NCBI GenBank assembly: GCA_026545225.1
Contig: CM048853.1
Span: forward strand, 13,704,755 to 13,768,754
Source of the DNA: Cornus controversa
Lineage: Eukaryota; Streptophyta; Magnoliopsida; Cornales; Cornaceae
Reading direction: 5' to 3'
Length of the DNA: 64,000 nucleotides
Every line of letters starts with the position of its first letter. Position 1 is the first letter of the stretch. Made by a program: the position numbers and the translations under genes. Positions 5,412-52,668 of this stretch are shown piece after piece. A model generated the notes under the pieces. That model had not been told where the DNA came from, made no database searches, and saw only the letters and a list, made by a program, of their open reading frames with translations.

Positions 5412-5482
5412 GAATATGTAATACCCCAGAAATTTGGACGTCAATTATTTTAAAGAATTTGAATTGCTTTATATTATTATTA

Positions 5483-5513
<31 letters not shown>

Positions 5514-6286
5514 ATTATTAATTCATGTGAAATGCCTTGTCTCTATATTTTATCGTTTTATGTGAGTTGCTTTTCCTTTATATGCATTTTATCATTTCAT
5601 GGGAATTGATAAGTTTGATTGTTATCATTTTATGTGGATTGTTTATGTTTTATAGATTCTATATTATTTCATGTGAATTTCTCTGTTTTTATTTTTATCA
5701 TTTTATGTGAATTATTTATTGATTATGTATTGTTTGATTTAAATCTTTTAAATGCTTTGGATTGGGTTAGGGAGGAATTTGGGTTGGAATGGTTGGGCTA
5801 GGGATATGCTTAAGTTGATGGGCCAGGGTTATGGTTATATTATTATTATTATTTAGTTTATTTAGTTTTTAGAAAAACAATAATAGAATAATAATAATTA
5901 AGACAAAAAGAAAATAAGAGACTAGGGTTTCTGCCATTTGCTTACGCATAGAAACCAAGGGAGTAAACGAAAGAGAGAAGGGAGTGAAGGAACGATCGGG
6001 TGAACGAGTTGTTGAATTGTCAAAGAGGCAAGTTCGAACTCTTCTCTTCTCCTTTGAATCTATATACATATGTATTATTTGTATATACATGTTGCTGGAA
6101 TATATATATAATATATATTAATTGTATAGACATGTTGCTAGAAATTTGTATACATTTAATTATGAAATTAAATGATTTTGCATGCTAAGAATAATTCTGT
6201 GAATTAAACATGAAGATTTTGGAGTTTTGGTACTGTTTTAGGGTATTTTTGCATATGTATATACATGTATATATGACTGTATAGGC

Positions 6287-6291
6287 GGGTG

Positions 6292-6332
<41 letters not shown>
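6287..6332. repeat. Compound TA/TG microsatellite
   Basis: Runs of TA followed by TG dinucleotides inside solo LTR A. The TA part is also present at the matching place in solo LTRs B and C with different lengths. Confidence 0.9.
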
Positions 6333-6889
6333 ACGAACATGAAATTTGGGTCTACTGTGTTTATCATTTTTGAGGGTTTTTATTCCAATCAATAGGTAGA
6401 TCTTGCTTCCTAGAACAATCCTTGCAAATTTGGTTGCGAACCGTTAGGTAGATTGACGGGAATCTGACTTTGAAATTTTAAATTTTCGAAACTTGAAATT
6501 GGGCATTTTTGAATTAGGCCACGAGAGGGCATGAATTTGGTACCAATGCGTAGCTTAGATCGAAACGAGTTCAATGGTATATTCATAAGCATTATTCAGT
6601 GCCCGGAAGTGACCGAAAAATGGTCGAAAAGTTCGGCCATCATTGTTGAGCGTGGGAGCTTCAGGTGAGGGAAAAAAAAAAACCCCCACGCACGCCACCG
6701 GCGAGTGGGAGCTTGTGTCGCCTGCTTCGGCTTCGGCCCATGGCTGAAAAAGTATTTTTGGGCTCCACTTGCGGGGGCCCACCTTTGGGTCTGATATGGG
6801 CACATTCCAAATTATTTTGGTATTTTTTTTGAATTTTTGAAATTTTTGGAAAAACTTGAAAATTTAGAAAATCATTTTTTTAAAATACT

Positions 6890-7480
6890 TTTATAATTCC
6901 AAAAATTCCCAAAATTTTATGTCAACTTCCTGGGAGTTTTAGGAACTTGGAATTTAAATTTTATGTCGAAATAATTTTCCCTTGTTTTTAAATTGATTTT
7001 TAAAGTGTCTAAAAATTGGGTTTTTCAGCTTCTTTAATTTTAGAAAATACTTAAAAAGTTTCAAAATTTTGCACATTTTTACTGTAACTTTCTGCAGGTT
7101 AAATACACTTGGGTTTAAATTTTCAACTCAAAATGAGTTGTCGTTGTAGTTCAATTGATTTTTAAAGTGTCCAAAAGTTGGGTTTTTCACATTTTGTTAT
7201 TTTAGAAAATACTTAAAAAAATATCAAAAATTCTCAAATTTTTAATGTAACTTCCTGGATGTTAAATGAACTTGGGTTTAAATTTTCATCTCAAAATGAG
7301 CTTCCTTTGGTGTTCAATTGATTTTTAAAGTGTCTAAAATTTGGGTTTTCACCTTCTTTCATTTTAGAAATTTTTTTTTAAAATTCTAGAAAATTCTAAA
7401 AAAATGCAGGTAACTTTATAGGAGTAAAATGCACCTGGGCTTTAAATTTCTAGTGAAAAGGAGTTTCCCTTGAGGTTGTA
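6890..7480 (+). repeat. 162-bp tandem repeats in solo LTR A (about 3.5 copies)
   Basis: The marker ATTGATTTTTAAAGTGT recurs at about 6992, 7154 and 7317, giving a period of 162-163 bp. Each unit also has a version of CTTGGGTTTAAATTT and TTTTAGAAAATACTT. Equivalent arrays lie at about 16360-16850 in LTR B and, reversed, at about 23100-23620 in LTR C. Confidence 0.88.
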
Positions 7481-7885
7481 TCGGTTGTATAAGTATGCCT
7501 CTGACTATGCTTTATTTGTCTTTGATTAGAAATTATTTCTTTTAAATTCCCGAGAGTATCAAAAAAAATTCAGGATGTTTAAACACGGTTTTAGGGACAG
7601 AATAGGCCCAGGAACTTAAATTCGAGTTAGGTTTTGACTCCCTTGAAGGTTTGGATAAATTGGAGGTTTGATTGAGTGTTTGCTTCTAAAGTGGTTAATT
7701 GTGTTATTTGATTTACTTTCATGTATTTTTCCTTTAAAGATATAAATGCCCATGAAATACTTGCTTATAGTTACTTGTAGACGATTTGTCTTATGGTGAT
7801 AATTTCATATCGGATAATTTGAATTACTTTGTTTGGGCAAATTAAAATCATAATGCACCTTGTTTATTTTATGTTTCATATTGGG

Positions 7886-8222
7886 AAGGTATCTATGCAT
7901 TTTATTTGGCATGTAAGGATTGCCCAGCGTGTCAGGATCGCCCATACCTAATAAGGTAATGCATTTTATTTGGCATGTAAGGATTGCCCGGCGTGGCAGG
8001 ATCGCCCATACCTAATAAGGTATCTATGCATTTTATTTGGCATGTAAGGATTACTCGGTGTGTCAGGATCGCCCATACCTAATAAGGTATCTATGCATTT
8101 TATTTGGCATGTAAGGATTGCCGTGCGTGTCAGGATCGCCCATACCTAATAAGGTATCTATATATTATATTTGGCATGTCAAGATTGCCTAGATTTAATA
8201 AAATGCATGCATATGTTTCTTT
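7886..8222 (+). repeat. 67-bp tandem hairpin repeats in solo LTR A
   Basis: Units start (GGCATGT) at 7908, 7972, 8039, 8106 and 8173, a period of 64-67 bp. Each unit can fold as two or three small hairpins: GGCA...TGCC, GGCG...CGCC, and ATACCT-AATA-AGGTAT. A diverged extra unit is visible at about 8335-8395. Some units here are mutated out of pairing (for example GGCA...TACT at 8039), unlike LTRs B and C. Confidence 0.9.
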
Positions 8223-9057
8223 ATTTTGAACTTAAAGAATGTGTTCATTGTTGAATGATAAAGGTTTGTTGGTACAATGTATAAGATGATTTTGATTTCT
8301 GAAAACATGAACTAGGTAGGAATGACCAGTATGTATATACCTATACCTATTAAGGTATCAAAGGATAAAATGGTGGCATGTTAGGATTGCTTAAACTTGA
8401 TATTATTTCATGTTATGTTTATTTCTGCTGAACTTAAGAAATGTGTTCACTTTTGCATAATAAGGATTTGGGTGGAACATTAAATAATGACTGTCGTTTT
8501 GGAAACATGAAACTGGATAAAAGAATAGCTTGTATGTTAAATCTATGGATTCCTTTTGTGTCCCTTATACTGGAGGTATGTATATTGGTTCTCTAATTGG
8601 GATATAGTAGATAGGACTTGCTCGTGGGTTTAACCCACTTGTTGATATTTCAGGTTTCAAATAGGTTCCACTACAAGGATAGAGTTTTATGATTGGTTGT
8701 GGTAGACATCTCTTCTCATCGGTCACAGGGTAGAAACCTATCATCTTATTCAAGGGTCAGACTATGAACTCTTTTGGAGATTTTGGTTGTTGGTTTTAAA
8801 TTAGAGTCTTAAACTTTTGTTTATTCTTGTTAAGGGGTCCTTGGGTTACGGGACTTCCAAATTGTATTACCAGGCATATAATTGTTTATTTATCCGTAAT
8901 TTCATTTCAGCGGAATTTTATGTTGAGCTTTTAAAAATTATTTCGTTCTATCTTTTGTCTTCTATGCTTGTTGCTATCAGTTATTAGTATCTCTCAGGTT
9001 TTGTGTAAGAGACTGGCCACCTCATGCGCGGAATTTTCTGGGGGGTATTTCAGAATA

Positions 9058-14911: not shown

Positions 14912-16359
14912 AACATTGTAATACCCCGAAAAATTTGGACGTCTATTATTTTAAAGAATTTAAATTTCTTTATATTATTATTATTATTATTTTTCAATTC
15001 ATGTGGAATGCCTTTATATGCATTTTATCATGTCATGTGAATTGTTAGGTCTTTATACAATTATTATTTTATGTGAATTGGTTGTCTTTATAAATTATTT
15101 CATTTCATGTGAATTGCTCTATTTTTATTTTTATCAATTTATATTAATTGTTTATTGATTGTGTATTATTTGATTTAAATATTTTAAATGCTTTGAATTG
15201 GGCTAGGGAGGAATCTGGGCTGGAATGGTTGGGCTAAGGATATGCTTAAGTTGTTGGGCCATGGTTATAGTTATATTATTATGGTTATTATTATTATTAT
15301 TTTTAGTTATTTAGTTTTTAGAAAATATAATAATAATAATAGAATAAAAATGATTAGGACAAAAGATAATAGAAACTAGGGTTTCTGCCATTTGCATTAC
15401 GCACAAAAATCAGGAGAATAAATGAAAGAGAGAAGGAGTTCGGGTGAACGAGTGTTTGAATCGTCAAAGAGGCAAGTTTGATTCTTCTCTTCCCCTTTGA
15501 ATCTGTATGCATAGTCTAGGTTTGAGGATTGTGTTTACTTTGAAGATTTGTATATAATTGTTTGTTTTTTTTTCTGTTGATAAAATTTGTGAGAATTAAT
15601 TATGATAATTGTATAGACATGTTGCTAGAAATTTGTATGCATTTAATTATGAAATTTAAATGATTTTGCATGCTAAGAATAATTCTGTGAATTAAACATT
15701 AGGATTTTGGAGTTTTGGTACTGTTTTAGAGTATTTTTGCATATGTATATACATATATATATGATTGTATAGGCGGGTATATATATATATAAACATGAAA
15801 TTTGGGTCTACTGTGTTTATCATTTTTGAGGGATTTTGTTCCGATTAAAAGGTAGATCTTACTTCCTAGAACAATCCTTGAAAGTTTCGTTATGAACCGT
15901 TGGGTAGATTGACGGAAAATTGAGTTTAAAATTTTAGATTTTCGAAACTTGAAATTGGGCGTTTTTGATTTAGTCCGCGAGAGGGGATAATTTTGGTATC
16001 AATGCGTAGCTTAGATCGATATGAGTTCAATGGTAATTTATATACGCGATTCGGTGCCCGGAAGTGATCGGGAAGTTTTCCTCCATTGTTGGGAGCGTGA
16101 AGCTTCAGGTGGGGAAGAAGAAGGAAAGAAAAAGAAAAAAAAAAAAGAAAAGGGGGGCCACCCGGCCGCCGGCGCGTGGGGGCGAGTGCCGCCGGCGCCG
16201 GTGGCCGGAAAAGTATTTTTGGGGCCCACTCTCGGGGGCCCACCTCTGGGTCCGATATGGGCCCATTCCGAATTATTTTATTATTTGTTTTGAATTTTTA
16301 AAATTTTTGGAAAAACTTGAAAATTAGGAAAATTATTTTTTAAAAATACTTTTAGAATT

Positions 16360-16850
16360 CTAAAAATTTCCAAATTTTTATGTCAACCTCCTGGGAGCTT
16401 GAGGAGATTGGGGTTTAAATTTCATGTCAAAATGATTTACCATTGTCTTTAAATTAATTTTTAAAATGTCTAAAAACTGGATTTTTCACCTTCTTTAATT
16501 TTAGAAAATACTTATGAAGTTCCAAAAATTCCCAAATTTTTACTGAAACTTTCTGGAGGCTAAATACACTTGGGTTTAAATTTTCAACTCAAAATGATCT
16601 TCCCTTGTTGTTCAATTTATTTTTAAAGTGTCCAAAAGTGGGGCTTTTCACTTTCTGTAATTTTAGAAAATATTTTTTATAATTCCAAAAATTCCCAAAT
16701 TTTTGCTGTAACTTTCTGGAGGTTAAATAAACTTAGTTTTAAATTTTCATCTCGAAATGAGCTTCCCTTAGTGTTCAATGAATTTTTAAAGTGTCTAAAA
16801 GTTGGGTTTTCACCTTCTTTTATTTGTTGAAAATATTTCAAAAATTCTAG
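16360..16850 (+). repeat. 162-bp tandem repeats in solo LTR B
   Basis: Same repeat as at 6890-7480, with about three recognisable units. Confidence 0.8.
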
Positions 16851-17171
16851 AAAATTCCAGAATGATTTAATAGGGTTCTGAGAAGTGGAATAGGCCAGAA
16901 ACCTAGATAAAATTTAGGTTTAAACTCCCTCGTAGAATTGAGTGCATTGGAGGTTAAGTTGGGAAATTGCTTCTATAATGGATGCTTGGGTTATTTGGTT
17001 TATTTGAATATATTTTCCTTTAAGGATATAAATGCCCATCAAATACTTGATTATAGTCTACTTGTGAACGATTTGTCTTATGATGATAATTTCATGTTGG
17101 ATGATTTGAAATAACGGTTGTGCAAATTTAAATCATAATGCACCTTGTTATTTTATATTGCATATTGGAAT

Positions 17172-17490
17172 GTATCTATGCATTTTATTTTGGCATGTAA
17201 GGATTGCCCGGCGTGTCAGGATCGCCCATACCTAATAAGGTATCTATGTATTTTATTTGGCATGTAAGGATTGCCCGGCGTGTCAGGATCGCCCATACCT
17301 AATAAGGTATCTATGCATTTTATTTGGCATGTCAGGATTGCCCGGCGTGTCAGGATCGCCCATACCTAATAAGGTATCTATACATTTTATTTGGCGTGTT
17401 AGGATCGCCCATACCTAATAAGGTATCTATACAATTTATTTGGCGTGTCAGGATCGCCCATATCTAATAAGGTATCTATATGTGTATGCA
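17172..17490 (+). repeat. 67-bp tandem hairpin repeats in solo LTR B
   Basis: Units start at 17192, 17259, 17326, 17393 and 17442 (spacing 67, 67, 67, 49). The last two units are shortened. In every unit the two small stems are either GGCA...TGCC or GGCG...CGCC and never a mismatched mixture. ATACCTAATAAGGTAT follows each, apart from a single ATATCT variant in the last. Confidence 0.9.
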
Positions 17491-18404
17491 CATGTTTTCT
17501 TTATTTTGAACTTAAAGAATATGTTCATTGTTGGATGATAAGGGTGTGTTGGAACAATGTATAAGATGATTTTACTTCTGAAAACATAAGCTAAATAGGA
17601 AATGACTAGTATGTATATATCTATACCTATTCAGGTATCAAAAGATTAAATGATGGCATGTTAGGATTGCTTAAACTTGATATTATTTTATATTATGTTT
17701 ATTTCTACTGAACGTAAGGAATGTGTTCACGTTTGCATAATAAGGGTTTGGGTGGAATATTATAAATATTGACCTGTTGTTTTGGAAACACGAAACTGGG
17801 TAAAAGAATAACTTGTAGGTTAAATCTATAGACTTATTTTGTGTCCCTTATACTGAGGGTATGTATATTGGTTCTCTGATTGGGATGTAGTAGATAGAAC
17901 TTGCTCATGGGTTTAACCCACTGTATTGATATTTCAGGTTTCAGACAGGTTCCACCGCGAGGATAGAGTTTTAGGGTTTGGTTGTAGCAGACGTCTCATC
18001 TCATCAGTTACAGGGTAGGAACTTGTCTTCATCAAGAGTCATACTATGAACTTTTGAGACTTTGATTGTTGGTATTAATTTTAGAATTTAAAAACTTTTG
18101 TTCTTTCTGGTTAAGGGGTCCTTGGGTTACATGACTTTCAAATTGTATTACCAGAATATATTTATTTATTTATCAATTATTTCAGTTCAATGGGATTTCT
18201 GTTTAGCTTTTAGCAATTATTCTATTTCTTTCTTTTGCATCTATGCTTGTTGCTATCAGTGGTTAATATTCCTCAGGTTTTGTGTATGAGACTGGCCACC
18301 TCATGCGCGAAATTTTTTGGGGGGTATTTCAAACATTCTTTATTTGGTTTTGTGCTTTGACCTACATGAATTAAATAACAACCAAAAAATTACATGAATA
18401 TTCT

Positions 18405-21554: not shown

Positions 21555-22424
21555 CTGAATGAAATACCCCCCAGAAAATTTTGCGCATGAGGTGGCCAGT
21601 CTCATACACAAAACCTGGAAGATACATACAACTGGTAGCAACAAGCATAGAATACAAAAGAAAGAAATAGAATAATTGTTAAAAGCTGAACAGAAATCCC
21701 ATTGAACTGAAATAATTGATAACTAAATAATTAAATTCTAGTAGTACAATTTGGAAGTCCCGTAACCCAAGGACCCCTTAACTAGAAAGAACAAAAGTTT
21801 AACACTTAAATTGAAATCCAAAACCAAAACCTCTAAATGAGTTCATAGTTTTACTCCTGAAGAAAAAAAAAAAATAGATTCCTACCCTGAGACTGGTGAG
21901 AGTAGATGTCTGTCACCACTAACCCTAAAACTCTATCCTTGCAGTGGAACCTGTCTGAAACCTGAAATATCAACAAAGTGGGTTAAACCCACGAGCAAGT
22001 TCTATCTACTACATCCCAATCAGAGAACCAATATACATACCCTCAGTATAAGGGACACAAACGAAAACAATAGATTTAACATACAAGCTATTCTTATTCC
22101 AGTTTCATATTTTCAAAACAACAATCATTAATTATAATATTCCACCCAAATCCTTATTATGCAAAAGTGATCACATTTCTTAATTTCAGCATAAATAAAC
22201 ATAACATGAAATAATATCAAGTTTAAGCAATCCTAACATGCCATCATTTAATCTTTTGATACCTTAATAGGTATAGATATATACATACTAGTCATTCCTA
22301 TTTAGTTCACGTTTTTCAGAAGTAAAATCATCTTATACATTGTTCCAACAAACCCTTATCATCCAACAATGAACACATTCTTTAAGTTCAAAATAAGGAA
22401 AACATATGCATACATGTATAGATA

Positions 22425-22690
22425 CCTTATTAGGTATGGGCGATCCTGACACGCCAAATAAAATGTATAGATACCTTATTAGGTATGGGCGATCCTGACA
22501 CGCCGGGCAATCCTTACATGCCAAATAAACCAAATAAAATACATAGATACCTTATTAGGTATGGGCGATCCTGACACGCCGGGCAATCCTTACATGCCAA
22601 ATAAAATACATAGATACCTTATTAGGTATGGGCGATCCTGACACGCCGGGCAATCCTTACATGCCAAAATAAAATGCATAGATACATTCC
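22425..22690 (-). repeat. 67-bp tandem hairpin repeats in solo LTR C
   Basis: Four units. Stems GGCA/TGCC and GGCG/CGCC are all correctly paired, and each unit carries ATACCTTATTAGGTAT. The leftmost unit is shortened in the same way as the terminal units of LTR B. Confidence 0.9.
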
Positions 22691-23099
22691 CATATGCAAT
22701 ACAGAATAACAAAGTGCATTATGATTTAATTTGCACAAACCGTTATTTCAAATCATCCAACATGAAATTATCATCATAAGATAAATCGTTCACAAGTAGA
22801 CTATAATCAAGTATTTGATGGGCATTTATATCCTTAAAGAAAATTACATTCAAGTAAATCAAATAGCTCAAACATCCATGAAAGAAGCAATTTCCCAACT
22901 CAACCTTCAATGCACTCAAATATATGAGGGAGTCTAAACCTAACTTTTATCTAGGTTTCTGGGCATATTCTACTACTAAGAACCCTATTAAATCATGCTG
23001 GAATTTCCTAGAATTTTAAAAATTATTATTCTAGCAAAAAGAAAATAAACATAATTCGAGGCATACTTTTACAACCAACACAATCACAAGGGAGGCTCA

Positions 23100-23620
23100 T
23101 TTTGACATGAAATTTAAAACCAAAGTGCATTTTAATCCTATAAAGTTACCTAAATTTTTCTAGAATTTTCTGGAATTTTAAAATATTTTCTAAAAATAAA
23201 AGAAGGTGAAAATCCAACTTTTAGACACTTTAAAAATAAATTGAACAACAAGGAAATATTATTTTGAGTTGAAAATTTAAACCTAAGTGTATTTATCCTC
23301 CAGAGAATTACAGTAAAAATTTGGGAATTTTTTCGAAATTATAAAAGTATTTTCTAAAATTACAGAATGTGAAAAACCCAACTTTTGGACACTTTAAAAA
23401 TTAATTGAACAACAAGGAAAGATCATTTTGAGTTGAAAATTTAAACCCAAGTGTAATTAGCCTTCAGAGAGATACAGTAAAAATTTCGGATTTTTGGAAA
23501 TTTCTAACTATTTTCTAAAATTAAAGAGGCTGAAAAATCCAGTTTTTAGATACTTTAAAAATTAATTTAAAGGCAATGGTAAATCATTTCGACATGAAAT
23601 TTAAACCCCAAGCTCCTTAA
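23100..23620 (-). repeat. 162-bp tandem repeats in solo LTR C
   Basis: Reverse complement of the array at 6890-7480. The marker ACACTTTAAAAAT recurs at about 23226, 23389 and 23551. Confidence 0.82.
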
Positions 23621-25061
23621 GCTCCCAGTAAGTTGATATAAAATTTTGAGAATTTTTAGACTTATAAAAGTATTTTTAAAAAATGATTTTTCCAGATTTT
23701 CAAGTTTTCCCAAAAATTTCAAAAATACAAAATAAATATCAAAACAATTCGGAATGGGCCCATATTGGACCCAGAGGTGGGCCCCCGCGAGTGGGGCCCG
23801 AAAACAATTTCCCGGCCACCGGCGCCGGCGGCACGCGCCCCCACGCGCCGGCGAACGAGTGGCCCCTTTTTTTTTTTTTTCTTTTCTTTTCTTTTTTTTT
23901 TTTTTCTTTCTTTTTCCTTCTTCCCCGGCTGAAGCTCCAGCGGCCAACAATGGAGGCCGAGCTTCCCGATCACTTTCCGATCACTTCCGAGCACCGAATC
24001 ACGCATATGAATATACCATTGAACTCGTATCGATCTAAGCTACGTATTGGTACCAAAATTATCCCCTCTCGCGAACTAAATCAAAAACGCCCAATTTCAA
24101 GTTTCGAAAATCTAAAATTTTAAACTCAATTTCCCGTCAATCTACCCAACGGTTCATAACGAAACTTTCAAGGATTGTTCTAGGAAGTAAGATCTACCTT
24201 TTAATCGGAATAAAATCCCTCAAAAATGATAAACACAGTAGACCCAATTTTCATGTTCGTATATATATATACACCCGCCTATACAATCATATATACATGT
24301 ATATACATATGCAAAAATAATCTAAAACAGTACCAAAACTCCAAAATGCTAATGTTTAATTCACAGAATTATTCTTAGCATGCAAAATCATTTAATTTCA
24401 TAAATAAATGCATACAAATTTCTAGCAACATATTTATACAATTAGCATAATTAATTCTCACAAAATTTATCAACAGAGAAAACAACATACAATTATATAC
24501 AAATTTCCAAAATAAACACAATCCTCAAACCTAGACTATGCATACGGATTCAAAGGGGAAGAGAAGAATCAAACTTGCCTTTTTCCTGACGAATCAACTT
24601 GTTCACCCGATCGTCACTCCATTCTCTCTTTCGTTTACTCTCTTTTAGTTCTGTGCGGCAAACCCTAATTTCTTCTTCTTTTCTTTTCCTTCTATTTTTA
24701 ATTATTCTTTTATTTATTTTCCTCAAACTAATTAAAAATCAAATTAATAATACTAACAATAGCAATAAAAATATTATTACAACCCTAGGCCCATCATTTT
24801 AAACATAACCTTAGCCCACTCATCCTAGCCCAAATTCCTCCCTAACCCAACCCAAAACATTTAAATAAAATAACACACAATTGATACCAATTCACATAAA
24901 ATGACAATATGTATGTATAAAAGACAAGCAACTCACCTACAATGATAATTTATATAAAAAACATTTAACATGAATTAATAAAATAAAGTAATAATGTAAA
25001 GAGATTAAATTGACACCTAAATTTTTTACGGTATTACACTGAAGTTGGTGAGGAAGTTGAG

Positions 25062-39095: not shown

Positions 39096-40421
39096 TTATA
39101 TCAAAATTATAGGTACCCCTATTGACTACAAATATCAACGTTAAACACAATGAATAGTTGCATACACAAGCAACCAACTATCTAAATAGTAGATAAAATA
39201 ATTAGTCAAATCACTATCAAATGAAATCAAATGCATGTTTGATAAATCTACACCCATCATTAGCTAACATTGAATCTTTGTTTCTTCCAATTCTATTCAA
39301 ATAGGTCATGATCAAAAGGAATGCAACTAACCTTGTGTAACAAAAATATGAAGTGATTCTGATTCACTTGGCCACAGTTACATCCTTATAAAATCGCCAT
39401 AGGGACTGAAATTCTCTTCTAAACCAGGGAATTAGATCTTGTAGGGATGCTTAAGAATTAAATAACATTCAAAATCTCTGAGTATTATTGACCTCCTAAT
39501 GTCGGACGATAAACGCTCAATACCAACTAAAGTCAGACAAGAAAAAGAAGTGCAAGAATAAAGGTGAGAAAAATAATGGAGGAAAGTGAGCTTAGAAAGT
39601 TGTAATAATTCTCAATTCAGGTAGTAAAGGATGAGAAGAACAAGACTAGAGGTGGGAAAGATAATGGAGGAAAGTGATTTTGGAATGTCACACTAATTCT
39701 CAATTCAGATCTATGTAAATATATTACATAAGGCCTAAGGGCCTTTTATGAACAACTAACTAAAAATGAGAGGGGGGGGGGGTTGAATAAGAAATAAACC
39801 AAAAATCCCTAAAAATAAAATAGAAAATAGCCCAAGTAAATATCTCTGTGCCTAAGCCTAACAAAGGTGTGAAATACATAATGATTTCCATCAATTTCTG
39901 TAATGAAACCAACTAGATGCCACACAAGAAAGAGAGGGTATGAGAAGACAAAAGAAAGGGGATGAGAAATTTTGAGAATATGAGATGAGAAGGGAAAAAG
40001 AGAAGGGTATGAGAATATAAACAGAAAGTGATGAGAATAGCTAAAATAAAGGTGAGAAAAATAATGGAAGAGAGAGATCATTTAAAGGCACATTGTCAAT
40101 TTAAGTTTGCATAATTCTATTACATAAGAGCCTTTTACACATAACAAACTGAAACACTAAAACCACCAAGGATTATAGTAACAATGGTATCGTCTCTACC
40201 TCCCAAAGTGGAAGATTAAGGGTTGAAGTCCTCATGGAGCAAAGTGGATGTGTGTGTCATTTGCCTAAGAAACAAAATAACTAAGCCAAAAACCTTAAAA
40301 ATAAATGTTCATCCTTGCTCCTATGCCAGACATAGGTGCCACATATCTTGGAGAATGATGATCTGCTTGATAGCATATCTACCCAATATTTCTCCTTCAA
40401 CTAGTTAATTTATCATTGGCC
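39096..40421. other. No gene; short direct repeats
   Basis: The block GGTGAGAAAAATAATGGA recurs at about 39563 and 40050, with a variant at 39650, alongside repeated CTCAATTCAG and TTACATAAG segments. A run of about 12 G lies at 39771-39782. No protein was recognised. Confidence 0.6.
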
Positions 40422-40625
40422 TCCTTTGTCACGACCCGAAATCCGGACCGCCGGGACTCCCCCGGACCGGCCCGAAGCCCAGGTTGCGAACCCGTTTACT
40501 CAACCTCACGCTATAACCACCACCTGATCATACAATCTCAATTTCCTATTATTTTACAAAAATTGGGCATGACCCATTCTAAATAATCAACTCCTGGCAT
40601 ATTACACCTGCTTTACAATTCATAT

Positions 40626-40700
40626 GGACACTTCTGGGCACGTGTCCCCCCAGCATTTATATCAAACAATCAAAATGGACACTTCTGGGCTCGTGTCCCC
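40626..40700. repeat. Two 51-bp units, each with a GGACAC...GTGTCC hairpin
   Basis: GGACAC at 40626-40631 pairs with GTGTCC at 40642-40647. GGACAC at 40677-40682 pairs with GTGTCC at 40693-40698. The loops differ by one base. The pair is repeated in the other LTR at about 48017-48091. Confidence 0.85.
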
Positions 40701-41414
40701 CCAGCATTTCTACCACATGCATAATATAATCAAAAGAATACATGTCTCAGTCCTTGAATGTCCGTATTATATACATATACATCACATGAATGTAATACAT
40801 CTGAAGGGATTGGCTCAACATAATTACTTCATACATTAATCCAAATGTACAACATTCATCTACTATCCTGAACATAAATTAGATTCTAAGGAATCTAACT
40901 ACTACCTCTGCAATTGGCGCTATCAGTTTCCCCAACTGACTCCATAATCGTCAATACCTGCAAAACCTGGGAGGGGGTGAGCTCAAAGGCCCAACAAGGT
41001 ATGTAGAACCATACTATCATCGCAGCAGCAGGTCGATCCTCACATATTCTCAAAACTATACATGCACTTAAATATATCATGATATTTAAAGTCATGCCCC
41101 TCCTAGCATACAAGAATCAACAATGCATATGGAAATCCTAGCACATATGAACATATAAATCAACTTCATATGATTTTCAAAAATCATTTTTCAACATGCT
41201 TGAAAATAGTAAAAATCCAACATCAATATGTATGAAGGACACAAGTATCCACGCATTTACATGACCAATATAAATCAATCACTACGTCATCTACCCTATA
41301 AGTACCAATCTCAAATGCGATATGAATGCTTTTAAATCGTACAACATGCTTAACAGTCAATCATGTAAACATAAAGGTATTTACACCTTCTTCGATTCTA
41401 ACTCGATACATAGG

Positions 41415-41494
41415 CATGATCGATCCACTTCGACGATCATGTGGTGTTAAGTCACTCTAACGACACCAAAGTGTTGGTTAACTCCGTCGACACT
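41415..41494. repeat. Three consecutive hairpins with unrelated stems
   Basis: 41415-41441 pairs CATGATCG with CGATCATG. 41442-41468 pairs TGGTGT with ACACCA. 41470-41494 pairs AGTGT with ACACT. The units are 25-27 nt with no gap or a 1-nt gap. The same set occurs at 48806-48885 in the other LTR. Confidence 0.8.
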
Positions 41495-41808
41495 CGTGGG
41501 ATAGGACAACTCCAATAGTCACACAAATCAAGGTATTCGTAGTTAATGTTCTAACTAAATTGTGCAATCCTTCATGAGATATTATAACATGCACATAAAA
41601 GATGGTATAACATGCTAGCAAGAAGAAAACAAAAGCATCACTCTACATTCCCAGTTCTAGTCATAGTCATAGTCATATGATCAAGCACTAACAGATCAAG
41701 CGAATTTCAACTCCGGTATTCAAGAGGCTAATCATATTTTGTTCCATCATTTTCAATAAAACATAAGCTACAATTTAAGCATATAATTCCGGGCGTTGTC
41801 CGTAGTTC

Positions 41809-41963
41809 CGTGCATTTATCGAAATAAATCACGTAGATTCCGTGCACTTACAGAAGTAAGTCACGTAGATTCCGTGCACTTACACCAGGTAAGTCACGTA
41901 GATTCCGTGCACTTACACAAGATAAGTCACGTAAATTCCGTGCACTTGTTAAAACAAGTCACG
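41809..41963. repeat. Five-unit tandem hairpin array (32-33 bp period), copy in 3' LTR
   Basis: Hairpins lie at 41809-41833, 41841-41865, 41873-41898, 41906-41931 and 41939-41963. Each has an outer stem CGTG/CACG, a single bulged C, and an inner 6-bp stem. The inner stem is ATTTAT/ATAAAT in unit 1, ACTTAC/GTAAGT in units 2 and 3, ACTTAC/ATAAGT (one mismatch) in unit 4, and ACTTGT/ACAAGT in unit 5. Loops are 4-5 nt; in the transcribed sense unit 1 has a UUCG loop. The paired changes keep the stems while the sequence varies. Confidence 0.92.
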
Positions 41964-44900
41964 TAGCACTGCCGGTTTTACGGGCTACTAACCCGATGGA
42001 ATCCGACACCACTTGGCCAAGTTTAGGATAGTTTCCCTTCATTTTCCGGCACAACCCCGTCAACTAAATCAATTTCCAAGCAACAAACATTCCAACAATC
42101 CCATATACACATGTATGTCAATTCCTGCATATAAATCATATATGCTTACAATCCTCTAATCTAGCATATATTATTCATGCTTTCCACTCAACACATCCAT
42201 GTATTACAGGTAACTAGTCTGCATCCCACTCACACCTCCAACGCATACTCACATATATACCAAATCCTGCATATAAGTCACCTATGTACATAAACTAGCA
42301 TAATGTAATCATACTCCCATTCAATGCACACACTGGTTACAGATACTTAGCGTGTATCCGTTTCTACATAGATCCCCATATAATCACGTGAATGTCATTT
42401 CCCACTCTTATATACAATGCGGATGCATATACACTTATCATATTATTTTCGTGTTCTAATCCATGCTCATTAATACTACAAAGAAGTATATGGCATATCT
42501 CCTGTCACAACTCACTACATATAGCCCATATGTGTATAACACATGCATATTATACCACTTATGCATACAACTTCAAGATCAGCATACTTTACTCATGTCC
42601 CACCCAATACATACATTTAGAACATAGAAACAGCATGCATTCAACAACTACATTCCCATATATAAACACACATGTGTCACATCCTGTATATAATCACATA
42701 TGCACGTATACTAGCACAAATAGAATCATACTATCATTCCGTGCATGCATTTACTACAACAATCTAGGATGTATTCAAATCACAATATATATAACCATAA
42801 TATATTCTATCATTCGTAAATGTATTATGCACACATATCACACTTAACATTTATCGTGCTTCTCAAGTACTCATCAATGTTATATTCAAATTTAGCATGC
42901 GTTTCTACATTGCAACCATATCTATATATATATATAATCACGTATATATATATATATATATTTAACATCATGCATAAGGATCATATATGCATGCAAGGCA
43001 ACATCAAGCTAAATATACATATATAATTTAGCATACTTTACATGGCTCAATCCCTAAATATGCATATAACAATGCAAATCGACATTTGAATCTAACAATG
43101 CTCTTACTCTCCAAGCCCACACATATATATATACCCACATGTATTTATCCTCACACCCCACGTATATATATATATATAAACACCTTTATATATATATATA
43201 TATATGCACATATATATATATATGCAAACACCACATATGACTAAATTAAGCACATATGTAAAATTAATCAGCATAATTAAAATATGCATAGAGATAGAGG
43301 CAAGAATCAACTTGCCTTAGGTCCAGCTTTCAACCGGTCCATGCCTGCAAATCGGCCTCTACCAAGTCCGGTCCGGTCCAATCCCTCGTCAAAGTTAACA
43401 CAACCGACCCAAAACACGAGCTATAATATCTTGTTATGCAAGACCCTCAAGCCAACCCCAAGGCCGGCATCTCCAAACCATCCAATCGAAGCTCCAAGCT
43501 TCGGCACTTTTGTCGACCCCGAGGCCGAACCCATCAAATCAGAACCCTGGCTGCTACTCCAAGCAACTCCCATGACATGCCTAGCTGAGACCAACTGAGA
43601 CCTCCTAATATTCAACCCCCGTGGTTACCTCTTCACGGCCCAACCACGAAACCATCCATTCGGCAGTTAGCCTCTAACCGGCCCCCAACCCAAATCAATC
43701 ACAAACCTATACATTTGTAGATCTCCAACATTGCAGCCCAAAATTATGGTTGCTCAAACAAACTCAACAACTACACACCAAACAATCCACAACCAAACAC
43801 AACCCGGCTATCTGCCGAGTTTCATCCCGAATCCCCATCGAGAATTACAACCATGGAAGCAAACCCAGCCAAACCATGAACCCAACTCAACTCAACAACT
43901 CACCTCAACTGAACCAACGACCCAGCAGGAACCATCAAAGCCTCGGCTTCCACTGTGAACATCCACCATAGCCGTGAGCCTCCAATCACCATACCCAAAT
44001 GGAACCCATTCAAAAACCATACCCAACCAACCAGCAACTGAACCCAACGGCTCACCGTAACGGATCTACTAGCCGAAGCCTCCAATCGGACCGAACACAA
44101 CCCATCGACCACCTCTGTCTCAAGCCCAGACAGCCTCGTACCGCCGTCCTACTCCACGGCCGGAAACACCTCCATCTTCGCAGACCCAGTCACCGTGAGC
44201 GTCACCGTCGGGATCATCGCCGGTTGAACCTTCCACCGAACCGGAGAACTCCACCCAGTCGCAAGCAGCTCGGTCGAATCGAGCCGTCACGCAACGCCGG
44301 ACATCACTGCCGTGGGCAACCACGGTCACCGTCGCCGTCGCTGCCGAAAACGGCCCCCGTCGCCGCTGATCGGCCGCCGGAACCGATTCCCCCTCTCGGC
44401 AGCTCTCTCTTTCCCTCTCGTTTCCCTCTCTCTCCCCGACTTCCTCTCTTCTCTCTCCCTTTTCTTTTTCCTTTTCTTCTTTTCCTTTTCTTTTCTTTCT
44501 TCTTTTTCTTTTCTTCTTTTCTCCTTTTCTCTTCTCCAGCCAACCCACGTGGGTCACTCTCCTTCTTTTATTTTAAACCCCCTTTTTCTTGCACTACTCA
44601 CAGCCACATATTAATATATGTATAAGTATATCCACATACCATATACACACTTACACCCATCCTCCTATACGTATATATGCCCATACATATACACACTTTT
44701 ATGTGTATATATAATAATGTATATACTTAATAGATATATTTATAATTTGATATAAATATATCCCACATATATATATATATACCTATATATATATATATAT
44801 ACGCATCCTCCGGCATTACTATAATTCCATGTACAAAATCTTCTCAATCTCTTTATTTATATACATAAAATTCCATACATATAAACATCCACTTCTATAA

Positions 44901-45032
44901 ATATATATATATAATTCCATTTATATATATATATATATCCACATATTTTTTTTTCGAAATTAATTTATTCGAAAAAAATTAAATCCGGTCAAAATCCACC
45001 CGGAACCGGTCAAAAAAATTCCAATCCTTACA

Positions 45033-45050
45033 ACCTCCCCTCCTTCAAGG
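45033..45050 (-). other. Polypurine tract
   Basis: The minus strand reads AAGGAGGGGAGGT immediately before the 3' LTR (TGTAAGG). This is the plus-strand primer site. ATTTCGAGGACGAAATT, a block common just upstream of the polypurine tract in Tekay-type elements, lies at about 45051-45067. Confidence 0.88.
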
Positions 45051-47475
45051 AATTTCGTCCTCGAAATTAGCATAGTCATGGTCTTTCCAAACTAATCCTT
45101 ACCAAACGTCATTCTCGCCAATGATCGTCACTTTTCCTTTCCACATACCCTAGGCGCTACACTTGCAACACCTAACTCATAATTCTCAACTCTTGCACAA
45201 CAGCGCATCTCGACTGCCGTAAGGAAATATAACTACTTCCGTGACATGGCTGAGTGACTCCTAAGCCCATGTACGGTTCACTCATGAAAACCTTCGAAGC
45301 ACTTGCTTCGTAGAGTCCACAGTCTCTACCTCAAGACCTACCCCAGTCCATCTCTACCTCTAGTCTAAGGCCACACCTTTGACTAATCATACCAATCACT
45401 CACAGTGATACTTCCCTATAATCCGGGATCATCAATACTCAAAGTCATTCTTTTAATATCCAACATAACTCTCAATCTCTGGCATACCATTCCCGGGCTT
45501 AGTCTAATACCCTGGGCATCATCACAACACAAACCGCATCAATCCAGTGCACATCACAAGCGCACTCACCAGCAAGGCACATGATAGTGTACCTGCCAAT
45601 ACAAACCACATAAGCAGTGTACTTGCCGCAGCAAGCCACATAACTCTGCCCAGTCTCATAGACCACAACCCACTGGAATCCAATGCCAAGTCTAGGATCT
45701 TACATCCCACTGATTTCACACTCTCATTACTCAAGAGAACCATTTCCCATTTTCATCGTTCACACCAAGGAATCAGTTGACAATTAGAGAGAATTCCTTT
45801 CATATTAGCACTTCACTTTAGACAACCCTTACCAATGAAAGTTTGAGGTCACCTACAGTAACCAAACAGCAACCATACAGTGGCCGCAGCCCACTGCATC
45901 TACATATCCACTGCGTCCACCTCTCCCCTTCATGGTAAGAAACTATCCTCACTTCAGATACCATATGTCAGGGTCCTCATCCATTATCAACTTATCCTTC
46001 TCTTAACATCATATCCACACTTTGATCCAACTGCATCAATCATGCGCATAACACAGTACCCTACTAAGGTCAAGGCACATGAAGAGTGCACCTGTCCAAA
46101 ACAAATCATCCAGTCCTGTCCATTTTCATGGACTACATTCCGTTGGCATTTAGTGCCAAGATTAGGGTTTTACATACCCTTAACTTCACAATCTCATTTA
46201 CCCGTCCATTGATCCTAACGGACGTTTTCGACTGTTCGGGTATTTATCCATTCCTTTCCAGCATCTCACTTGACACACCAAGATCCTGACTGCTTCTTCT
46301 AGGATCCCACAAATCCTTCCACGCATTACTGACTCCAAGAATTAGGTCAATTCTGAGTCCTCAATAATCGTGCAAGAGTGCAACGCAAATCTGGACTATC
46401 AAACTCTCAGTTTGGGAAAGTCCCAAGGCACTTCATGCCCTTCTTCATCCACACTAGACTCTTACTCCAAAGTCTATCACAACATGTCTATTTCAACATC
46501 ATAGTTCGTTCAACTCCAAACCTCTACCTAGGTTTGCCAATTCCTAAGACTGAAATTTCTAGGTGACTACATGTCACTACTAGCCATGTGACGCCAAATG
46601 TAACACAAAAGGGTAATGCACAGTCACATAAGTCACGCATAGCACATAGCATATAATATACAACATGTTAATCAAATAAACACATACCATGCATGATATG
46701 AAATATGATGCATCAAATCAAATCAAAATCCTAGCCCTCGAGCTAACACTAGGAAAATACCACTGTCCGTACACGGTCTCAGTACTTCCTCTGCCTGAGC
46801 AAGTGTGAAACACGGCCCAGTCCCCCTACTACACACATACTAGAACACAAACTCTAGAGCGGTTCAAACCAACCTACTCTCATCCTCTGTACTCATTGGT
46901 AAACACCTACCAATCCATCCACATCTGTAGTCTCAGGTAGCAACCTTGACTATCTACACCAATCACTTTCAGTGACATATCCCTACTATTGGGAATTCTT
47001 TATATGTCGTCATCCGGACGAAACAACTCAACGTCTACAAGAGCCAGCGTATTGTAAGAGAAACGCTAATCCAAGAAAAATGTTTGATCAGGCCATTTTT
47101 CTCAGTTAGCCCAACTCCGGCAATATGCCTTCCTTGTATCCCATCTCAATCTCAATTGCCAACCTCGGCAATACACTCATCAATCTCCTAAGTCCCTCAG
47201 TATTTCTAAGGACTTAAATACTCGCAACATCCCTTGCGGTATCTATTCATTGCTCACTAATGAGACTTAATCACCAAATCAAAGGTCTAAACTCAACCAA
47301 TTCTGGGAGTTATTACCAATCAAAACCAGTTTCGCACACCAACACTTTGATCTTTCATTAGGATTGCTCACATCGAGCAAGTCATTCCACTATCATCCAT
47401 AGGTAATCAAACCCATCATCTAGACAACTATCAACCATTGCCTATCTCCAAATCAACACATGATTTGACCATCTG
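45051..47475 (-). other. Interior of the non-autonomous element, no coding potential recognised
   Basis: Open frames are short and match nothing I recognise. Diverged internal duplications are visible. The block near 45570-45725 (AAGGCACATGATAGTG, then AATGCCAAGTCTAGG) reappears at 46070-46200. The block CCAATCACTCACAGTGATA at about 45390 reappears as CCAATCACTTTCAGTGACA at about 46957. The interior seems to have grown by local duplication. Confidence 0.7.
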
Positions 47476-47476
47476 C

Positions 47477-47817
47477 CCTTAGGTATTCGAACCTACGATT
47501 TTGATACCCTAGGTTTTTCAAACCTATTGCTTTAACAGCAATCCAGAGTTCCTCAAATCCTCAGCCTTCACCCGTCGCCCCTAGGTATTCCAACCTAGTG
47601 CTCTGATAGACACCATTCTGGCATCAGGTACATAATCCAATATTCTCAAACCATACACGTGATATGTCTATTCCCTTCATCCCTAGGTATTCCAACCTAG
47701 AGCTCTGATACCATGTTGTTGGTATCAGAGACTTGATCTAACCCCCATAATTCCAAATATTATCTGAACACCACCCGTCGTCCCTAGGTATTCTGACCTA
47801 GAGCTCTGATACCATGC
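47477..47817 (-). repeat. Four 102-bp tandem leader units, the last containing the primer-binding site
   Basis: The plus-strand block AGGTATTC(N)2ACCTA recurs at 47481, 47583, 47685 and 47786 (spacing 102, 102, 101). Each is followed by a version of GAGCTCTGATACCA, which is intact in the two units nearest the LTR and progressively decayed in the two farther ones. In unit 3 a second inverted GGTATCAGAG follows. Confidence 0.9.
47803..47814 (-). other. Primer-binding site, tRNA-iMet type
   Basis: The minus strand reads TGGTATCAGAGC, three bases from the LTR end (47818). It fixes the element's orientation as minus. Confidence 0.9.
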
Positions 47818-50800
47818 TGTCACGACCCGAAATCCGGACCGCCGGGACTCCCCCGGACCGGCCCGAAGCCCAGGTTGCGAACCCGTTTACTCAACCTCAC
47901 GCTATAACCACCACCTGATCATACAATCTCAATTTCCTATTATTTTACAAAAATTGGGCATGACCCATTCTAAATAATCAACTCCTGGCATATTACACCT
48001 GCTTTACAATTCATATGGACACTTCTGGGCACGTGTCCCCCCAGCATTTATATCAAACAATCAAAATGGACACTTCTGGGCTCGTGTCCCCCCAGCATTT
48101 CTACCACATGCATAATATAATCAAAAGAATACATGTCTCAGTCCTTGAATGTCCGTATTATATACATATACATCACATGAATGTAATACATCTGAAGGGA
48201 TTGGCTCAACATAATTACTTCATACATTAATCCAAATGTACAACATTCATCTACTATCCTGAACATAAATTAGATTCTAAGGAATCTAACTACTACCTCT
48301 GCAATTGGCGCTATCAGTTTCCCCAACTGACTCCATAATCGTCAATACCTGCAAAACCTGGGAGGGGGTGAGCTCAAAGGCCCAACAAGGTATGTAGAAC
48401 CATACTATCATCGCAGCAGCAGGTCGATCCTCACATATTCTCAAAACTATACATGCACTTAAATATATCACGATATTTAAAGTCATGCCCCTCCTAGCAT
48501 ACAAGAATCAACAATGCATATGGAAATCCTAGCACATATGAACATATAAATCAACTTCATATGATTTTCAAAAATCATTTTTCAACATGCTTGAAAATAG
48601 TAAAAATCCAACATCAATATGTATGAAGGACACAAGTATCCACGCATTTACATGACCAATATAAATCAATCACTACGTCATCTACCCTATAAGTACCAAT
48701 CTCAAATGTGATATGAATGCTTTTAAATCGTACAACATGCTTAACAGTCAATCATGTAAACATAAAGGTATTTACACCTTCTTCGATTCTAACTCGATAC
48801 ATAGGCATGATCGATCCACTTCGACGATCATGTGGTGTTAAGTCACTCTAACGACACCAAAGTGTTGGTTAACTCCGTCGACACTCGTGGGATAGGACAA
48901 CTCCAATAGTCACACAAATCAAGGTATTCGTAGTTAATGTTCTAACTAAATTGTGCAATCCTTCATGAGATATTATAACATGCACATAAAAGATGGTATA
49001 ACATGCTAGCAAGAAGAAAACAAAAGCATCACTCTACATTCCCAGTTCTAGTCATAGTCATAGTCATATGATCAAGCACTAACAGATCAAGCGAATTTCA
49101 ACTCCGGTATTCAAGAGGCTAATCATATTTTGTTCCATCATTTTCAATAAAACATAAGCTACAATTTAAGCATATAATTCCGGGCGTTGTCCGTAGTTCC
49201 GTGCATTTATCGAAATAAATCACGTAGATTCCGTGCACTTACAGAAGTAAGTCACGTAGATTCCGTGCACTTACACCAGGTAAGTCACGTAGATTCCGTG
49301 CACTTACACAAGATAAGTCACGTAAATTCCGTGCACTTGTTAAAACAAGTCACGTAGCACTGCCGGTTTTACGGGCTACTAACCCGATGGAATCCGACAC
49401 CACTTGGCCAAGTTTAGGATAGTTTCCCTTCATTTTCCGGCACAACCCCGTCAACTAAATCAATTTCCAAGCAACAAACATTCCAACAATCCCATATACA
49501 CATGTATGTCAATTCCTGCATATAAATCATATATGCTTACAATCCTCTAATCTAGCATATATTATTCATGCTTTCCACTCAACACATCCATGTATTACAG
49601 GTAACTAGTCTGCATCCCACTCACACCTCCAACGCATACTCACATATATACCAAATCCTGCATATAAGTCACCTATGTACATAAACTAGCATAATGTAAT
49701 CATACTCCCATTCAATGCACACACTGGTTACAGATACTTAGCGTGTATCCGTTTCTACATAGATCCCCATATAATCACGTGAATGTCATTTCCCACTCTT
49801 ATATACAATGCGGATGCATATACACTTATCATATTATTTTCGTGTTCTAATCCATGCTCATTAATACTACAAAGAAGTATATGGCATATCTCCTGTCACA
49901 ACTCACTACATATAGCCCATATGTGTATAACACATGCATATTATACCACTTATGCATACAACTTCAAGATCAGCATACTTTACTCATGTCCCACCCAATA
50001 CATACATTTAGAACATAGAAACAGCATGCATTCAACAACTACATTCCCATATATAAACACACATGTGTCACATCCTGTATATAATCACATATGCACGTAT
50101 ACTAGCACAAATAGAATCATACTATCATTCCGTGCATGCATTTACTACAACAATCTAGGATGTATTCAAATCACAATATATATAACCATAATATATTCTA
50201 TCATTCGTAAATGTATTATGCACACATATCACACTTAACATTTATCGTGCTTCTCAAGTACTCATCAATGTTATATTCAAATTTAGCATGCGTTTCTACA
50301 TTGTAACCATATCTATATATATATATAATCACGTATATATATATATATATATATATTTAACATCATGCATAAGGATCATATATGCATGCAAGGCAACATC
50401 AAGCTAAATATACATATATAATTTAGCATACTTTACATGGCTCAATCCCTAAATATGCATATAACAATGCAAATCGACATTTGAATCTAACAATGCTCTT
50501 ACTCTCCAAGCCCACACATATATATATACCCACATGTATTTATCCTCACACCCCACGTATATATATATATATAAACACCTTTATATATATATATATATAT
50601 GCACATATATATATATATGCAAACACCACATATGACTAAATTAAGCACATATGTAAAATTAATCAGCATAATTAAAATATGCATAGAGATAGAGGCAAGA
50701 ATCAACTTGCCTTAGGTCCAGCTTTCAACCGGTCCATGCCTGCAAATCGGCCTCTACCAAGTCCGGTCCGGTCCAATCCCTCGTCAAAGTTAACACAACC

Positions 50801-52427
50801 GACCCAAAACACGAGCTATAATATCTTGTTATGCAAGACCCTCAAGCCAACCCCAAGGCCGGCATCTCCAAACCATCCAATCGAAGCTCCAAGCTTCGGC
50901 ACTTTTGTCGACCCCGAGGCCGAACCCATCAAATCAGAACCCTGGCTGCTACTCCAAGCAACTCCCATGACATGCCTAGCTGAGACCAACTGAGACCTCC
51001 TAATATTCAACCCCCGTGGTTACCTCTTCACGGCCCAACCACGAAACCATCCATTCGGCAGTTAGCCTCTAACCGGCCCCCAACCCAAATCAATCACAAA
51101 CCTATACATTTGTAGATCTCCAACATTGCAGCCCAAAATTATGGTTGCTCAAACAAACTCAACAACTACACACCAAACAATCCACAACCAAACACAACCC
51201 GGCTATCTGCCGAGTTTCATCCCGAATCCCCATCGAGAATTACAACCATGGAAGCAAACCCAGCCAAACCATGAACCCAACTCAACTCAACAACTCACCT
51301 CAACTGAACCAACGACCCAGCAGGAACCATCAAAGCCTCGGCTTCCACTGTGAACATCCACCATAGCCGTGAGCCTCCAATCACCATACCCAAATGGAAC
51401 CCATTCAAAAACCATACCCAACCAACCAGCAACTGAACCCAACGGCTCACCGTAACGGATCTACTAGCCGAAGCCTCCAATCGGACCGAACACAACCCAT
51501 CGACCACCTCTGTCTCAAGCCCAGACAGCCTCGTACCGCCGTCCTACTCCACGGCCGGAAACACCTCCATCTTCGCAGACCCAGTCACCGTGAGCGTCAC
51601 CGTCGGGATCATCGCCGGTTGAACCTTCCACCGAACCGGAGAACTCCACCCAGTCGCAAGCAGCTCGGTCGAATCGAGCCGTCACGCAACGCCGGACATC
51701 ACTGCCGTGGGCAACCACGGTCACCGTCGCCGTCGCTGCCGAAAACGGCCCCCGTCGCCGCTGATCGGCCGCCGGAACCGATTCCCCCTCTCGGCAGCTC
51801 TCTCTTTCCCTCTCGTTTCCCTCTCTCTCCCCGACTTCCTCTCTTCTCTCTCCCTTTTCTTTTTCCTTTTCTTCTTTTCCTTTTCTTTTCTTTCTTCTTT
51901 TTCTTTTCTTCTTTTCTCCTTTTCTCTTCTCCAGCCAACCCACGTGGGTCACTCTCCTTCTTTTATTTTAAACCCCCTTTTTCTTGCACTACTCACAGCC
52001 ACATATTAATATATGTATAAGTATATCCACATACCATATACACACTTACACCCATCCTCCTATACGTATATATGCCCATACATATACACACTTTTATGTG
52101 TATATATAATAATGTATATACTTAATAGATATATTTATAATTTGATATAAATATATCCCACATATATATATATATACCTATATATATATATATATACGCA
52201 TCCTCCGGCATTACTATAATTCCATGTACAAAATCTTCTCAATCTCTTTATTTATATACATAAAATTCCATACATATAAACATCCACTTCTATAAATATA
52301 TATATATAATTCCATTTATATATATATATATATCCACATATTTTTTTTTCGAAATTAATTTATTCGAAAAAAATTAAATCCGGTCAAAATCCACCCGGAA
52401 CCGGTCAAAAAAATTCCAATCCTTACA
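47818..52427 (-). mobile_element. 5' LTR of the non-autonomous element
   Basis: 4610 bp, offset by 7391 from the other LTR up to the TA run at about 50336 and by 7395 after it. Acting as the 5' LTR on the minus strand, it should hold the active promoter somewhere past 52427. The many TA runs make the TATA box ambiguous. Confidence 0.95.
49200..49354. repeat. Five-unit tandem hairpin array, copy in 5' LTR
   Basis: Same as 41809-41963, with no difference seen between the two copies. Confidence 0.92.
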
Positions 52428-52432
52428 TCCTT

Positions 52433-52668
52433 CATGTCTTTAGATACCAATTAAAGGAGTAACCATACTCATTTTCTAGAAGGAAAGGTGGTACAATTGA
52501 AATTCTCTCCTAATGTATTTCAGCAGTTGTAAGTAATATCCCCTCCCCCCTCTCTCTTTTCCCCTTAACGTTGCCTCAGCTTTCATATGAGCTCAATGTC
52601 CTGAATCATCCACTACAATACGTATTAAACATTCAACGAACCTTACTCCTTTCCCCAAGATATCATAT
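52433..52668. other. Flank of the insertion, no gene
   Basis: Sequence that was continuous with 40421 before insertion. It has a pyrimidine-rich stretch at 52540-52566. No protein was recognised across the restored junction. Confidence 0.5.

Follow-up and report, generated by a model that had tools for sequence, protein, structure and literature searches.

A tandem array of bulged hairpins in the long terminal repeats of a young non-coding retrotransposon of Cornus controversa, a candidate signal of the sense RNA

Why does a retrotransposon carry, inside its long terminal repeats (LTRs), a row of short hairpins whose stems differ in letters from unit to unit and still pair? The question is raised by a 64,000-nucleotide stretch of Cornus controversa DNA (hereafter the window; contig 9, 13704755-13768754, of a searched genome of 771.7 Mb in 61 contigs), in which an earlier note described five tandem hairpins in a young LTR and saw in their paired stem changes the signature of selection on structure, with quasi-palindrome correction as the alternative. 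The array is probably a signal folded in the RNA of the element. To our knowledge, how the proteins of coding elements come to select non-coding LTR elements is poorly understood in plants, and a short, repeated, conserved hairpin in coding and non-coding elements would be a concrete candidate signal, open to deletion, mutation, and rescue.

The array lies in a complete LTR element spanning window 40422-52432 (Table 1), which is a young non-coding LTR retrotransposon with the features of a LARD. A TSD encloses a pair of long direct LTRs, each with TG..CA ends, and both a primer-binding site and a polypurine tract are present, assigned by motifs that we take to be characteristic; the former is presumably of the initiator-Met tRNA type. 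No Pfam match at E 0.01 was obtained for the one stop-to-stop frame of at least 110 aa in the internal domain, which runs antisense, and four LTR frames also run against Pfam gave one sub-cutoff match (DUF4638, E 0.006). The sense strand of the window element is minus, because of the placement of the primer site and polypurine tract and the strand of the gag-pol pieces in a coding relative (below); the plus strand, on which the hairpins had originally been read, is thus the wrong reading strand. G exceeds C in the sense strand across the whole element, and therefore strand composition gives no location for the transcription start. The description of the LTR as young holds, since the two LTRs, aligned over about 4,606 bp, differ by three substitutions (all C/T) and a single TATA indel of 4 bp. 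At 1.3e-8 substitutions per site per year, the insertion age is estimated at some tens of thousands of years. By the primer site, a stretch like CCTAGGTATTCNNACCTAGAGCTCTGATACC recurs imperfectly several times within window 47461-47817; the primer-site complement occurs both at 47702-47713 and at 47803-47814, with an inverted repeat of it at 47702-47730.

Table 1. Features of the LTR element and its hairpin arrays, in window coordinates
Feature	Position	Strand	Remark
TSD TCCTT, left	40422..40426		element end
3' LTR, 4606 bp	40427..45032	-	TG...CA ends
Hairpin H4, last in sense order	41809..41833	-	inner stem ATTTAT/ATAAAT
Hairpin H3	41841..41865	-	ACTTAC/GTAAGT
Hairpin H2', young duplicate of H2	41873..41898	-	ACTTAC/GTAAGT
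Hairpin H2	41906..41931	-	sense ACTTAT/GTAAGT, closing U·G pair (C·A on +)
Hairpin H1, first in sense order	41939..41963	-	ACTTGT/ACAAGT
Polypurine tract AAGGAGGGGAGGT, adjoining 3' LTR	45033..45045	-	presumed from motif
Internal domain, without recognised coding domain	45033..47817	-	
Primer-binding site TGGTATCAGAGC, 3 nt from 5' LTR	47803..47814	-	presumed from motif
5' LTR, 4610 bp	47818..52427	-	
Identical five-hairpin array of 5' LTR	49200..49354	-	
TSD TCCTT, right	52428..52432		element end

Sequence reading and Tandem Repeats Finder placed the repeat array at 41801-41966 and 49192-49357, corresponding in the 5' LTR to sense positions 3071-3236. Within it, five tandem 10-bp hairpins, each with one bulged base, occupy 41809-41963 and recur in the other LTR, as had been reported; the surrounding 211 bp are identical between the LTRs. 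Each unit reads, in sense, CGTG, an inner 6-mer, a loop of 4-5 nt, the matching 6-mer, a bulged G, and CACG, with spacers of 7 nt between units in the order H1-H2-H2'-H3-H4. A scan for Watson-Crick hairpins on the plus strand (a stem of 10 bp with at most one bulge, a loop of 3-6, and at least three G/C among the first 11 bases) gave 12 matches in the window, eight of which are the array (four per LTR); six locally shuffled windows gave 1, 0, 0, 0, 0, and 0. The scan misses the fifth unit of each LTR because of its C·A on the plus strand. This unit (41906-41931) had been recorded as having one mismatch, which is correct for the plus strand; on the minus strand the pair becomes G·U, so that all five hairpins are fully paired in the sense RNA. 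Compared with dinucleotide shuffles, RNA folding gave z -4.3 for the plus strand (0/200 shuffles as good) and z -3.0 for the minus strand (1/200). The array of five tandem bulged hairpins is thus confirmed, with the inner stems as listed in the earlier note. Rfam gave no match above the gathering score in window 40300-52600, the viral contigs and plasmids searched contained no match, and two exact 18-mer matches in prokaryote genomes were taken as chance. A search of the open literature by the letters of the array and LTR ends, and by 'tandem hairpins' with retrotransposon terms, returned no paper.

Two genome searches with array-bearing queries yielded at least 42 and at least 40 matches, 14 of the latter new; the best 40 of 100 and of 85 candidates, respectively, were scored, and the copy numbers are therefore lower bounds. 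Copies without the array fall outside this sample because the queries carried it. Array places were fetched in sets of 38 and 13, plus one inside the copy L053, and units were counted by eye, as an automated counter also caught chance hairpins in the flanks. Among the first 38 places, 28 have four units, eight have five, L030 has seven through repetition of its H2-H3-H4 block, and L046 has about eight. The 14 added copies have four units each, L078 missing the 3' arm of H1 and L068 having an enlarged H1 loop. The four-unit order is H1 (RCTTGT/ACAAGT), H2 and H3 (ACTTAC/GTAAGT), and H4 (ATTTAY/RTAAAT), and the four can be made out in this order in the arrays read, including those with only about 76% identity to the query, although some arrays have broken pairs or have lost an arm. 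Some young copies (L019-L023) have lost H2 or H3 from a five-unit state. Comparison of the copies shows that the array is old, with four hairpins whose order is fixed, and that the fifth unit of the window element is a young duplication. The paired unit-to-unit differences that had drawn attention to the array are consequently old and inherited, since four-unit copies keep one hairpin order; if arms are simply dealt out among four typical units, the chance that all of them pair is 0.03, which is not strong evidence alone. L017 (C4:18011990) and L019 (C4:18019388) lie 7.4 kb apart, are equal at 637 of 638 aligned bases, and carry five and four hairpins, the difference being one 33-nt unit; they are apparently the two LTRs of one element. 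Elsewhere, L026 and L027 (C1:108369401 and 108374721) are inverted array copies 5.3 kb apart with 637/637 identical fetched bases, and L065 and mirror-image LTR matches lie between them, an arrangement that is possibly a large palindrome.

The earlier statement that the element has no coding capacity is true of the window copy, but the same array also stands on both sides of a decayed coding relative. Six stop-to-stop pieces of L053 were run against Pfam; one had no match, and the others gave Retrotrans_gag (3.5e-10), RVP_2 (4.1e-38), RT_RNaseH (1.2e-18), and SH3_Tf2-1 (6.2e-24), with no match to RVT_1 or a chromodomain among the six. From these matches, the coding relative appears to be of Ty3/gypsy type; the family may be Del/Tekay, a tentative assignment made on motifs. 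The decayed gag-pol pieces are spread over several frames and run in the same direction as the array sense, with the array of L053 on one side and that of L047 on the other, and we read these two arrays as belonging to the two LTRs of the coding relative. Among eight copies whose surroundings were fetched on both sides, a second array was found only for this relative. Downstream of the coding relative, at L053 about 2143-2167 (minus), a primer-site motif comes after the LTR, which suggests a tandem or recombined element arrangement.

Identity among 12 older copies is 0.87-0.90 in the array and 0.77-0.87 in about 100 columns on either side, falling at the ends of the fetched stretch to 0.38-0.55 upstream and 0.71-0.76 downstream; the array thus sits within a wider island of identity. 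Among 28 copies, changes per non-CpG site were 0.38 in outer stems, 0.5 in the bulge, 0.83 in inner stems, 0.86 in spacers, 1.73 in loops, and 1.03-1.74 in flanks, and the 16 non-CpG columns right after the last hairpin (0.81) were as slow as the inner stems. Among 42 copies, the values were 1.0 (bulge), 1.19 (outer), 1.73 (inner), 2.05 (spacer), 3.12 (loop), and 2.2 (flanks); in both sets, the flank rates were measured on the columns used for building the tree. Loops are fastest and, at non-CpG sites, outer stems are the slowest stems; the CpG sites of the outer stems decay rapidly. The bulge is kept in the aligned copies, with four substitution events over its four sites in the whole 42-copy tree, and L073 lacks one base beside it. 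Slow stems with fast loops are as expected of a structured RNA, and the inner stems are only somewhat slower than spacers and flanks.

Covariation across copies, by which the earlier note proposed to judge the structure, was not above chance. The four-unit alignment excludes L030, L046, the five-unit copies L011-L018, and the window, and L069, L072, and L075 show a slight misalignment, which affects an edge or a single hairpin. With 28 copies, three pairs had changed on both sides versus 2.0 in shuffles (149/500 shuffles reach this), and 96.5% of cells were paired versus 96.3%. With 42 copies, the counts were 1/24 inner pairs versus 0.93 and 4/16 outer pairs versus 3.44 in column shuffles. The fold returned by RNAalifold differed in part, and its covariation term was no more than -0.4 in size. 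As the majority of copies are dead and have decayed since they inserted, selection would be visible only on branches common to copies. Changes were therefore divided into internal and tip branches, by Fitch reconstruction on a single FastTree tree built from about 320 flank bases per copy. In the inner stems of 28 copies, the pair was kept in 7/8 internal and 16/31 tip changes (p 0.11; tallied on a root other than the midpoint, which put reversals on the L044 branch). In 42 copies, it was kept in 14/16 internal and 29/63 tip changes (Fisher p 0.004). The antisense control, in which A·C was counted instead of G·U, gave 7/16 versus 26/63 (p 1.0), and the outer stems, where CpG decay dominates, gave 13/20 versus 30/68 (p 0.13). 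In 1000 neutral tree simulations, with divergence, CpG excess, and the share of transitions matched, the internal keeping of 0.875 was reached in 10, the internal-minus-tip difference in 22, and its antisense version in 649; tip keeping was as simulated (0.46 vs 0.48; 583/1000 at least as high). Unpaired changes as frequent as paired ones, which the earlier note would have counted against selection, are thus found among private tip changes (34/63 unpaired) but not among shared ones (2/16). Selection on sense-RNA pairing is supported, but modestly, the claim being limited by the Fitch reconstruction, the single tree, and the several statistics examined. The comparison of internal with tip branches, together with the antisense control, provides a usable test of RNA structure in transposon families where decay swamps covariation.

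The folding-energy tests are weak. The old set comprised 12 copies in the first of them and in the identity comparison above (L038 was left out, although it belongs there) and 27 in the later ones. Inner-stem A·C cells in sense numbered 5 versus 16 expected in the 12 copies (48/1000 simulations as low) and 14 versus 35 in the 27 (35/1000). Summed hairpin energy was lower in sense than in antisense in 27/28 copies and in 27/27 older copies, the latter also in 101/1000 simulations. For the 12 and 27 copies, respectively, simulations reached the sense energy in 34 and 98 of 1000, the sense-minus-antisense energy in 44 and 130, and the share of inner cells paired in 137 and 191; the G·U minus A·C statistic of the 27 copies was reached in 382/1000. 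When each copy's own changes were placed at random, only 4/12 old copies folded better than 95% of placements.

As the best account, to which we give about an even chance, the array is a conserved, cis-acting tandem-hairpin module of the sense RNA. It would be an old module in the LTR of a Ty3/gypsy family, common to coding and non-coding members, and the sense transcript would form a row of four (in the window, five) separate hairpins, each with a near-constant CGTG/CACG outer stem, a single bulged G, a 6-bp inner stem, and a free loop. In the active lineage, inner-stem changes would pass via G·U with pairing kept, and after insertion the copies would decay neutrally. Selection on structure, as the earlier note proposed, is accordingly favoured but not proved, the lineage test being positive for sense RNA only and the covariation null. 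A leading rival, which we consider rather unlikely, places the function in the duplex: units of 32-33 bp (about three helical turns) with opposite CACG/CGTG cores would bind a host factor in an enhancer-like array. The hairpin symmetry would then reflect dimeric sites. Tandem boxes in the U3 region of tobacco Tnt1 act as an enhancer, promoters reside in LTRs, and the slowness of the outer CGTG/CACG stems at non-CpG sites and the differing unit number among copies would both suit such a role. A duplex site, however, explains neither the sense-only pairing of lineage changes nor why pairing is kept though the letters of both arms differ between units, and the spacer changes almost as fast as the flanks (2.05 vs 2.2 per site).

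Two further readings dispense with selection. The array may be a neutral relic of a tandem palindrome that the ancestor passed on to all copies and that is conserved through the youth of the family alone. The near-neutral keeping of pairs at the tips (29/63), the classical covariation null, and neighbouring columns almost as conserved as the array agree with this idea, but the rate order of loop, spacer, and stems and the positive lineage test do not, and we judge it unlikely. Quasi-palindrome correction or slippage, in which the array is a replication product whose arms template each other, would leave the structure equally unselected and is consistent with covariation no higher than in shuffles and with the exact unit steps in number (L017 vs L019; the repeated block of L030). 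Under this process, changes should come in pairs with no intermediate states, and the bulge should disappear. The bulge is retained, H4 pair 6 has U·G intermediates (among 42 copies, C-G 10, U·G 18, U-A 10, C·A 3, G·G 1), loops evolve faster, and stems more slowly, than the flanks do on average, and single-arm changes, including G·U states, are common and persist in clades, as at the first inner pair of H1 (G·U 21, A-U 20, G·G 1 of 42). The alternative offered by the earlier note is thereby disfavoured and appears distinctly improbable as the origin of the structure, while slippage may still act on unit number. Finally, the hairpins could hide the GTAAGT/GTGAGT donor cores in the right arms of H2 and H3 and so keep the genomic RNA unspliced. 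These letters are the core of a 5' splice site, ACTTAC matches the letters of the 5' end of U1 snRNA, and a one-arm A-to-G change in H2 of 9/42 copies preserves both pairing and the donor core; the upstream bases, however, are unlike the exon end of a donor and H1 has no core, and we judge such masking very improbable.

As for the function of the sense-RNA module, its most likely job would be to offer the Gag/nucleocapsid of the element itself a series of binding sites, in packaging and possibly dimerisation, and the non-coding element would be recognised through it by the proteins of the coding relative. Our leading guess is that a shared Gag packages the RNA, by analogy with the 5' RNA domain of Ty1 and retroviral packaging signals, 5' structures that serve packaging and dimerisation (PMC5454406, PMC8096270); they are a model by function alone, and homology is not expected. 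We infer that the array is transcribed, bound by Gag, and used in packaging, and its position may lie outside the RNA of the element. Loop-loop contact in the array is not evident because the loops are its least conserved part. As a speculative extension, which seems doubtful, Gag would read the tandem-hairpin handle unit by unit, non-coding giant-LTR elements and coding relatives would share one replication machinery through this common tag, and the unit number (four to about eight, apparently unequal even between LTRs) would act as a tunable dosage.

Among known systems, the window element resembles LARDs such as Sukkula of barley, which in the accounts available have very long LTRs and a non-coding internal domain. 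These are assumed to be mobilised by the proteins of a coding relative, and the same may be proposed here; the tandem hairpin array inside the LTR, found also beside a decayed coding relative, sets the window element apart, no such array being mentioned for LARD LTRs in those accounts. In the accessible text of a survey, Del/Tekay chromovirus LTRs are long, often have a CpG island, and bear conserved terminal att-type ends (PMC4029996). Long LTRs are a point of likeness to the present family. The words 'hairpin' and 'tandem' do not occur in that text (PMC4029996). The LTR ends here, GGGTCGTGACA, have GGG at -9 to -11 by plain count, which is not necessarily the numbering of the survey (att type A: -8 to -10). 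Family-specific tandem repeats are also found in the plant gypsy elements Retand/Tat, where they lie between pol and the 3' LTR rather than inside the LTR, and the text available on them contains neither 'hairpin' nor 'secondary structure' (PMC11963269). Tandem arrays of another kind occur elsewhere in the window: three long related repeats (5417-9052, 14917-18331, and 21560-24865), one of them inverted and most of their aligned pieces about 81-87% identical, contain 162-bp and 67-bp tandem arrays.
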